DNA from: Candidatus Hydrogenedentota bacterium
GTDB taxonomy: Bacteria; Hydrogenedentota; Hydrogenedentia; Hydrogenedentales; JAEUWI01
NCBI GenBank assembly: GCA_019637335.1
Contig: JAHBVV010000004.1
Location: 206,471-270,470 of the forward strand
Length of the DNA stretch: 64,000 nucleotides
Direction: 5' to 3'
In this document: positions 36,447 through 57,176 of the stretch, one piece after another
How positions within the stretch are numbered: position 1 is the first letter of the stretch
How the letters are laid out: every line of letters starts with the position of its first letter
Notes under the pieces: generated by a model
Seen by the model: only the letters and a program-made list of their open reading frames with translations
Told to the model about the DNA's origin: nothing
Database searches by the model: none
Translations under genes and position numbers: made by a program

Positions 36447-36470
36447 GGACAGGCGGGACGCCTATCCTAC
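36447..36470. repeat. Single REP-like unit (47-bp array type)
   Basis: One copy of the palindromic unit GGACAGGCGGGACGCC(T)ATCCTAC in the spacer between the aldolase and dehydrogenase genes. The same spacer has a short degenerate run of AAAGGAC-type repeats at about 36361-36402. Confidence 0.8.
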
Positions 36471-37576: not shown

Positions 37577-37908
37577 GTAGGATAGCCGTCCCGGCTGTCC
37601 CTGGACAGGCGGGACGCCTATCCTACACTGGCTGGTCCCTTCGGGACCTGGACAGGCGGGACGCCTATCCTACACTGGCTGGTCCCTTCGGGACCTGGAC
37701 AGGCGGGACGCCTATCCTACACTGGCTGGTCCCTTCGGGACCTGGACAGGCGGGACGCCTATCCTACATTGGGCGGTCCCTTCGGGACCTGGACAGGCGG
37801 GACGCCTATCCTACTTTGGGTGGTCCCTTCGGGACCTGGACAGGCGGGACGCCTATCCTACTTTGGGTGGTCCCTTCGGGACCTGGACAGGCGGGACGCC
37901 TATCCTAC
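37577..37908. repeat. Seven-copy 47-bp palindromic tandem array
   Basis: The unit GGACAGGCGGGACGCC begins at 37603, 37650, 37697, 37744, 37791, 37838 and 37885, exactly 47 bp apart. Each full unit has two hairpins, AGGCG-GGA-CGCCT and GGTCCC-TTC-GGGACC. Just before the first unit lies a degenerate copy in reverse orientation (from GTAGGATAGCC), making an inverted head pair. The last unit ends on the base before the TAA of the adjacent gene. There are no unique spacers, so it is not a CRISPR. Confidence 0.93.
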
Positions 37909-55522: not shown

Positions 55523-56314
55523 ATGAACCTGAACCTTACGGATCGCGCCGCGGCGGTCCTGGCGTCGTCCGCCGGCATCGGGCGGGGCATCGCCGCCGCG
55601 CTGGCCGCGGAAGGGGCGCGCGTCGCCATTTCGGGGCGCGACCCAAAGCGGATCGAGCACACCGTGGCGGAGATGCGGGAACAATTCGGGGACCGGGTTT
55701 TCGGCGAAGCCCTGGATGTGACCGATGGGCCGGCGCTCGAAGCGTACCTGCACCGGGTTCGCGAGCGCTTCGGGGCGGTGGATATCCTGGTGACCAACGC
55801 GGGCGGCCCGCCTCCGGGGCCGGCGGCCGACCTGAGTCTGGAAGCGCTCGACGCCGCCTGCGAACTGACGCTGAAATCGGCGGTCCGCGCGATCCGCACG
55901 GTGCTGCCCTGGATGCGGGCGCGGAAATGGGGGCGGATCATTGCGGTGACGTCCAGTTCGGTGCGGGAGCCGATTCCGAACCTGGTGCTGTCGAATATCT
56001 TCCGGCCCGCGCTCACCGGGTACTTGAAGACCCTGGCCGGCGAAGTGGCGCGGGACGGGGTGCTGGTGAATAGCGTGTGCACGGGGGCCTTTGACACGGA
56101 CCGGATGCGTTCGCTCTGTCAGGCGCGCGCGGATGCGGCGGGCATGCCGTTGGAGGCGGTGTTGCGGCAGGCGGGCGAAGTGCTTCCGGTGGGCCGTATT
56201 GGCAGCCCGGCGGAGTTTGGGGCGCTGGTGGCCTTTCTGGCGTCGGACCAGGCCGCATTCCTCACGGGCGCGGCGATTCCACTGGATGGCGGCGCCAGCC
56301 ACGGCCTGTTCTGA
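55523..56314 (+). CDS. SDR oxidoreductase lacking the usual YxxxK
   Basis: A 263-residue short-chain dehydrogenase. The Rossmann start is ASSAGIGRGIAAALA with NAGG and the catalytic Ser region VTSSSV. The typical Tyr-x-x-x-Lys is replaced by NLVLSNIFRPALTGYLKTLA, a pattern of the BKR-like SDR subgroup that uses other residues or is inactive. The C-terminus (LTGAAIPLDGGASHGL) is normal. The ATG at 55523 has a plausible AAAGGA site. It is divergent from carA, and 6 bp separate its stop from the stop of the convergent peptide gene. Confidence 0.85.
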   Translation: MNLNLTDRAAAVLASSAGIGRGIAAALAAEGARVAISGRDPKRIEHTVAEMREQFGDRVFGEALDVTDGPALEAYLHRVRERFGAVDILVTNAGGPPPGPAADLSLEALDAACELTLKSAVRAIRTVLPWMRARKWGRIIAVTSSSVREPIPNLVLSNIFRPALTGYLKTLAGEVARDGVLVNSVCTGAFDTDRMRSLCQARADAAGMPLEAVLRQAGEVLPVGRIGSPAEFGALVAFLASDQAAFLTGAAIPLDGGASHGLF

Positions 56315-56320
56315 GCCGGG

Positions 56321-56461
56321 TCAGGATTTCAGGTCCGGGGCTTTCACGATGGCCTTGATGGTCAGTTCGCGGATTTCCAGGGGGCCGCCCTTCACGAGGG
56401 CGGCGTCTTCCGGGGTCACCGGGGTGGCCATATCCAGGTCCTTGATCACGATTTTCGCCAT
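56321..56461 (-). CDS. 46-residue double-glycine leader peptide, RiPP-like
   Basis: A short gene with a strong ribosome binding site (AGGAG 9 bases before the ATG). The product starts MAKIVIKDLDMATPVTPEDA and continues ALVKGG. The form IKDLD...(V/L)TPEDAALVKGG matches leaders of ribosomally made peptides cut after Gly-Gly (Nif11-like and bacteriocin-type). The 20-residue remainder (PLEIRELTIKAIVKAPDLKS) has no Cys and only one Thr and one Ser, so lanthionine chemistry is unlikely. No modifying enzyme, peptidase or exporter adjoins it. It could be a bacteriocin-like or signalling peptide, or a carrier for another modification. Confidence 0.65.
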   Translation of the reverse strand: MAKIVIKDLDMATPVTPEDAALVKGGPLEIRELTIKAIVKAPDLKS

Positions 56462-56937
56462 GCTATTCGTCTCCTTGCCTTCGGGCTCCGTACAGTGCTT
56501 CTTGCTCGCGGTTCACGGGTCCGCCGAATGCGCTCGTAATTCAACACGACCACTCCGGCCCGGGCAAACCATGCTGGCCGTTGCCGGCCGGCGTCCGCAC
56601 TTTCCATGGGGTCTCATCGGCGTTTTCGCCGGTGTGCATCAGGTACTGAGCAATTTCCGGGCCAGAACCCGACAATTTCCGGCAAGCCCCTGTCTTGACG
56701 GCGCTTACAAGAGAGCGGCTGGGTCCAAGTCCGTGGCCAGCCCCCGGTACGGGAGCCCGGTGATGGCGCCAGGACGATGCCGTGGCGTCAGAATTGGACT
56801 ATCGGCAACAAACGAACGGAATGAAGCACCCACCGGTGTACTGGCGTCTATACACAAGCGCAGCAATCACATGAAGTCTTGCGCACCTCCTGCCGCGGAC
56901 ACGAATGTCCGCGATCCTTTGCACCTTCCGGCGCATT

Positions 56938-56961: not shown

Positions 56962-57098
56962 ATTTGCGCCTTTCGGCGCTGAACACAGCCGAGACGCCCG
57001 CCTCCGGCGCGTCATTGAGTTGTGCCACTTTCCCTTCGGGGTGGTTTTGGTGGGGTGAGGGGAACTTTTTGGAGGTGGGCTCACTTTGACGCGGACAC

Positions 57099-57176
57099 GA
57101 ATGTCCGCGATCCCTGGATTCACGCTCTCTTGACCGAGACATGCTTTCACACCGGGGGCGCCTCATTCCGCTAAAG
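57099..57176 (-). repeat. 78-bp dispersed repeat, copy 2
   Basis: Closely matches the reverse complement of 19542-19619, including CTCTTGACCGAGACATG and CTCATTCCGCTAAAG. It begins within a GCGGACA hairpin and ends 6 bp before the MITE-terminus-like sequence. Confidence 0.7.

Follow-up and report, generated by a model that had tools for sequence, protein, structure and literature searches.

The window, a stretch of 64,000 nucleotides of Hydrogenedentota DNA, carries a 46-codon gene whose product is best read, from its sequence, as an orphan and probably unmodified substrate of a σ54-controlled export system that would cleave its substrates after a double glycine (GG). The peptide belongs to a family of about 30 GG-leader peptides, ten of them encoded in the same genome (G000) and about 22 in three relatives, and many of the family cores correspond, as judged by profile matches, to parts of larger proteins that are secreted or that assemble, and are not generic RiPP cores. 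We consider the gene, its family and the export route proposed below to be probable as a whole.

The window gene and its product

The gene is real and lies on the minus strand, running from 56461 to 56321 (Table 1). A hidden Markov model (HMM) of the leader, built from 21 other peptides with the window peptide left out, retrieved it with an E-value of 7.6e-7 as the sole real match among 1253 window ORFs, with column 1 at the ATG and column 26 at the GG. Its codon-usage score per codon is the highest of the 127 ATG-started ORFs of 38–60 codons in the window, and it is among only three of these size-matched ORFs with a good Shine-Dalgarno sequence, a strong AAGGAG located 9 nt before the ATG. 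Moreover, the leader is of the length (~15–30 aa) expected of GG leaders, ends in Gly-Gly and has conserved hydrophobic positions, with M1, I4, V23, G25 and G26 invariant in the leader alignment (A3). The original prediction missed the strand but otherwise described the gene correctly, including the ORF itself, the strong ribosome-binding site, the GG leader and a core lacking Cys and nearly lacking Ser and Thr: the 20 core residues include no Cys, one Thr and one Ser. Also absent from that prediction were the peptide family, the σ54 promoters and the origin of the cores as protein fragments. The plus-strand reading of the same segment yields an unrelated peptide.

A convergently oriented SDR gene (55523-56314) has its stop codon 6 bp from the end of the peptide gene. 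Beside the 71%-identical SDR neighbour in the relative G001 the peptide is absent, and the window gene has no proven orthologue. There is no NCBIfam match for the peptide; a single-protein search of 195 genomes returned only the peptide itself and chance matches within long ORFs, and a search of viral contigs, plasmids and phages returned nothing.

The REP-like element GGACAGGCGGGACGCCTATCCT is present in seven copies, about every 47 bp, at window positions 37603-37907, as single copies at 36447 and 56938, the latter near the window peptide, and in four copies near the C25 peptide (L029 8586-8751). A 27-nt repeat with the palindromic core GCGGACACGAATGTCCGC is found at 56891-56917 and 57087-57113, 196 nt apart, with both copies intergenic and upstream of the window peptide.

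Table 1. Features of the window peptide gene (window coordinates) and of the Cys-rich protein genes (locus coordinates)
Feature	Position	Strand	Basis or remark
GG-leader peptide gene, 46 aa + stop	56321..56461	-	leave-one-out leader HMM; codon usage
Leader MAKIVIKDLDMATPVTPEDAALVKGG	56384..56461	-	all 26 columns align with sibling leaders
Core PLEIRELTIKAIVKAPDLKS	56324..56383	-	residues 1-16 similar to positions 2-17 of the DUF5908 profile
Shine-Dalgarno region, AAGGCAAGGAGACGAATAGC-ATG	56462..56481	-	sequence
Putative σ54 promoter TGGCCCGGAAATTGCT, 203 nt before ATG	56649..56664	-	one mismatch to TGGCAYRNNNNNNGCT
Cys-rich protein	L027 9477-10652	-	by peptide genes
Cys-rich protein	L073 10014-11165	-	by peptide genes
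Cys-rich protein	L076 11118-12191	-	by peptide genes

A family with conserved leaders and variable cores

A first search of the same 7.16 Mb genome gave weak matches to short ORFs with similar leaders, and a four-leader profile yielded the ten clear members in G000, at C22 (two), C1, C4 (the window), C25, C27 (four in tandem) and C3. Homologues with a conserved leader and a variable core, which the original prediction expected to exist, are thus present in this genome and in three relatives. Among the 60 relatives searched, members were detected only in G000, G001, G003 and G006, all Hydrogenedentota; the single match in G002 lies inside a 4316-codon frame and was taken as chance. When the genomes of 84,980 named species were scanned for Hcp-type peptides with the single pattern VKGG[PA][AVG]Y[MIL]K, three loci were confirmed, each in a metagenome-assembled genome (MAG) of Candidatus Hydrogenedentota; this result concerns the Hcp-type subset, and peptides of the window type may occur elsewhere.

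Synteny between genomes is apparent at two loci (C3 with G001 C40, and C27 with G003 C651), and at both the leaders are kept while the cores and the number of peptides differ. In paired sibling leaders the ratio of non-synonymous to synonymous change is 0.18–0.57, that is, amino-acid-changing substitutions are fewer than silent ones; comparison of the window gene with siblings that are more distant gives 0.49–0.81, which over only 26 codons says little. One sibling leader scores above the Pfam ComC cut-off (20.7 vs 20.4). In a literature search that was thin in subscription papers, no paper on such a peptide family was found.

A second type of GG peptide, RVILLEDLDGAEDDVIGGAGQKLFFGE / RVIQLDDLDWEDEVVGGSSGGKIVFGE, is conserved between two genomes (L028 8158-8364 and L079 3740-3943, both minus), and an exact σ54 site is also present at its G000 copy.

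Cores resembling segments of secreted proteins

Several sibling cores match families of much larger proteins above the curated cut-offs, namely the N-terminus of SBP_bac_10/DUF1559 (34.5 and 41.0 bits vs 23.3), the middle of T6SS_HCP (33.3 bits, cut-off 23.5) and TIGR04294, with its H-X9-DG motif (27.4 bits, cut-off 19); other sibling cores give weak family matches. These Hcp, DUF1559 pseudopilin and H-X9-DG fragments are placed directly after the Gly-Gly. Furthermore, 18 sibling cores were compared with 500 shuffled versions of each by means of a small Hcp profile, and 14 of them outscored at least 498 of their shuffles. Five peptides (C25, G3C29a, G3C29b, G6C445b and G6C445c) contain two segments of Hcp that follow each other in the native order but lack the part between them. 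A full-length Hcp with a GG leader, considered as a parent of these peptides, is absent from the Hcp proteins of this genome and of six relatives.

For the window core there is no sign of Hcp similarity, since 113 of 500 shuffles score as well; it resembles instead the N-terminus of DUF5908 (PF19265). The full peptide scores 19.4 bits (E 0.0019) and the core alone 22.0 bits (E 3e-4); with a Met added, the core reaches 27.1 bits, below the cut-off of 27.7 for membership in the family. None of seven shuffles gave a match. The match begins at profile residue 2 after the leader, and its start thus coincides exactly with the Gly-Gly junction. The register is that of residues 2-17 of DUF5908; in contrast to members of that family, the window peptide has a GG leader before the match, which covers only 16 residues and stays below the cut-off, and no injection-system gene is located near it. 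A search of this genome at E<=0.001 revealed no gene for a DUF5908 protein, and among 386 relatives there was one match at E <= 0.001, in G147, which was also the only one above threshold. The G147 protein is small, lacks a GG leader and is encoded in a locus with tail-tube-like proteins, which we take to be a contractile injection system; DUF5908 would then be a 'Cis6-like' component. BLASTP gave no alignment between the window core and the G147 protein.

Putative σ54-type promoters shared by the peptide operons

The pattern TGGCAYRN6GCT was sought within 250 nt upstream of 18 operon-leading peptide genes and of 176 other genes from the same loci. Exact sites precede 12 of the 18 peptide operons vs 1 of 176 controls (Fisher p 6e-14) and sites with at most one mismatch 17 of 18 vs 9 of 176 (Fisher p 5e-17), p-values that are somewhat optimistic in that the exact pattern was set after viewing all 18; the motif was first noticed in two of the 18 (window and C25), neither of which is an exact match. 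The candidate site of the window gene differs by one mismatch from the consensus common to the sibling operons, and its chance occurrence alone is 0.018 per upstream region. It is also the furthest upstream, the distance to the ATG in the other operons being 51–137 nt. Genome-wide, the exact pattern occurs 46 times, against 90 for the reversed control, and among the other exact sites are some upstream of genes resembling rpoN and an ammonium transporter, identities that were read from sequence; an rpoN-like gene is thus present in the genome. Moreover, a PspF-like activator, 78% and 72% conserved, is encoded beside peptides in G000 C25, G001 C88 and G006 C445. Taken together, the peptide genes look as if they are switched on together. 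The exporter operon described below has no such σ54 site.

Exact σ54 sites were also observed at L089 and L097 before predicted secreted proteins resembling PEP-CTERM proteins; σ54 control of the PEP-CTERM system has reportedly been described, and these sites would fit it. At L108 (G000:C13:133997-134039), two divergent exact sites lie 11 nt apart.

The exporter and its neighbours

A C39 peptidase/ABC exporter elsewhere in the genome, the presence of which was to be checked according to the original prediction, was found. G000 contains four C39 matches but a single full-length peptidase-ABC exporter (C1:269090-272180, 1030 aa), so that a cognate exporter is available at the level of the genome, at a distance from the window gene. 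It combines two cNMP domains with C39 (135.8 bits), ABC_membrane and ABC_tran domains, and its C39 domain contains the cysteine motif DCG, with a Gln preceding the Cys, as well as the histidine of NHW; at the third position of the triad there is Asn in G000 and G001 and Asp in G003. A TIGR04500-like gene is located just upstream and an HlyD gene next downstream. The same cassette directly adjoins GG peptides in G001 C88 and G003 C278, with exporters 83% and 75% identical to that of G000. At E<1e-150 the exporter was detected in 3 of 60 relatives, all of them peptide-bearing, a co-occurrence that is supportive but, these genomes being related, does not amount to independent evidence. In G006, a genome that is 60% complete, peptides are present and the exporter was not found.

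The TIGR04500-like proteins score 61.2 and 51.6 bits, far below the family cut-off of 180. In C22 and G001 C88, a second TIGR04500-like protein and a Cys-rich protein are encoded upstream of the peptides, and a homologue of the latter is encoded near the GG peptides of G003 C278. The Cys-rich protein shares the motif CLDCAMC...TKCCTYFP...VCSTWFCKH in the three genomes and matched no Pfam or NCBIfam family. Its C-terminus appears reminiscent of a RiPP recognition element. A structure model of this protein from a three-sequence alignment was poor (pLDDT 41.6) and was set aside.

Proposed mechanism and alternative interpretations

Given these observations, we propose that the window gene encodes the pre-peptide of a lineage-specific GG-leader family and is probably transcribed from the σ54 promoter with the aid of the sensorless PspF-like activator encoded at C25. 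The C39 domain of the single full-length exporter would recognise the 26-residue leader and cut after the Gly-Gly, the TIGR04500-like protein encoded just upstream of the exporter would serve as a substrate chaperone, and the 20-residue core would be pushed out through the exporter and its HlyD partner. For the window peptide, we infer cleavage and export because of its family. The leader would have replaced the start Met of a DUF5908-like N-terminal segment, much as the leaders of its siblings precede Hcp and DUF1559 segments.

The RiPP identity originally suggested for the peptide was not borne out, whereas the accompanying statement that no maturation enzyme is adjacent is right locally: there is no modifying enzyme beside the window gene, and Pfam and NCBIfam searches of the scanned sibling neighbours recognised none, whether ATP-grasp, radical SAM, LanM or YcaO. 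We doubt this identity because the DUF5908-like window core and the Hcp and DUF1559 fragments of its siblings are unlike a modification substrate. A true RiPP, the core of which would be modified by enzymes recruited via the TIGR04500-like and/or the Cys-rich protein before export, could be envisaged given that MirC, a TIGR04500 protein encoded together with a PCAT, is needed by a graspetide synthetase (PMC13097080), that the Cys-rich protein is conserved beside peptides in three genomes, and that the C22 cores are abundant in Ser, Thr and Tyr. With TIGR04500 scores of 51–61 bits, a Cys-rich protein that has neither a family assignment nor a good fold model, and a window core with just one Ser and one Thr, we nevertheless judge this interpretation unlikely.

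A secreted quorum or developmental signal, like the ComC-type or HetC-dependent ones, would agree with the ComC-like sibling leader, the σ54 control and the cNMP domains on the exporter, which HetC also has (PMC10986499). The many divergent cores per genome are, however, a poor fit to one signal, no sensor was found beside the window gene, and the C25 activator consists of AAA+ and Fis-type domains only, without an N-terminal sensor domain; a signalling role hence seems to us rather unlikely. Decay of the gene, with a leftover leader and a functionless, drifting core, might be suspected from the lack of an orthologue at the same place in the relative, the fragmentary homology, and the variable and repetitive sibling cores (a KLGDIKGES-like unit occurs three times in L076). 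It is hard to reconcile with an intact ORF, a strong Shine-Dalgarno sequence, the best codon usage of the size class, a leader match spanning all 26 columns and a promoter-like site, and we consider it very unlikely.

Comparison with known systems

The exported, probably unmodified peptide that we favour shares a short GG leader, a C39 peptidase-ABC exporter and an HlyD adaptor with the class II microcins and GG-leader bacteriocins, and differs from these in the σ54 promoters, the many unlinked peptide loci, the two cNMP domains on the exporter and cores that are Hcp, pseudopilin or DUF5908 fragments; furthermore, no immunity gene was noticed. HetC of Nostoc PCC 7120, for which export of a regulatory peptide has been proposed, has the same layout of N-terminal cNMP, C39 and ABC domains (PMC10986499). 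Its substrate is unknown and its gene has no membrane fusion protein gene nearby, whereas here there are two cNMP domains, an HlyD protein and clear GG peptides adjoining the orthologues. Graspetide clusters with TIGR04500/MirC likewise combine TIGR04500-like and PCAT genes with short precursors (PMC13097080); in contrast, no graspetide synthetase was found here, the scores are well under the family cut-off, the leaders end in GG and the cores show no obvious graspetide pattern.

Biological implications

With respect to function, our guess, which we put forward as rather doubtful, is that the cores act extracellularly: as segments of secreted proteins that self-assemble, they could attach to such assemblies and cap or block them, either those of other cells, in a microcin-like antagonism, or those on the cell's own surface. 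In a related and equally speculative vein, the family might be a σ54-switched arsenal or display in which GG leaders were grafted onto Hcp, pseudopilin and DUF5908 segments and the resulting mimics interfere with or seed assemblies. The use of segments from Hcp, pseudopilins and DUF5908 could reflect mimicry of structures that assemble, which we regard as rather doubtful, capture of convenient secreted sequence or shrinkage of once longer fusions.

The present analysis places an orphan short ORF in a family for which both a switch (σ54 with its activator) and a pump are predicted, in a phylum whose peptide biology is little characterised. It is unusual for cores to be recognisable as pieces of large secreted proteins, which suggests either that segment capture is a route to new secreted peptides or that tubes and pili are deliberately mimicked; if the mimicry is true, these peptides would represent a novel type of weapon or regulator. 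Furthermore, the promoter signature together with the leader profile could enable the computational discovery of such genes, which are too short for the usual annotation.
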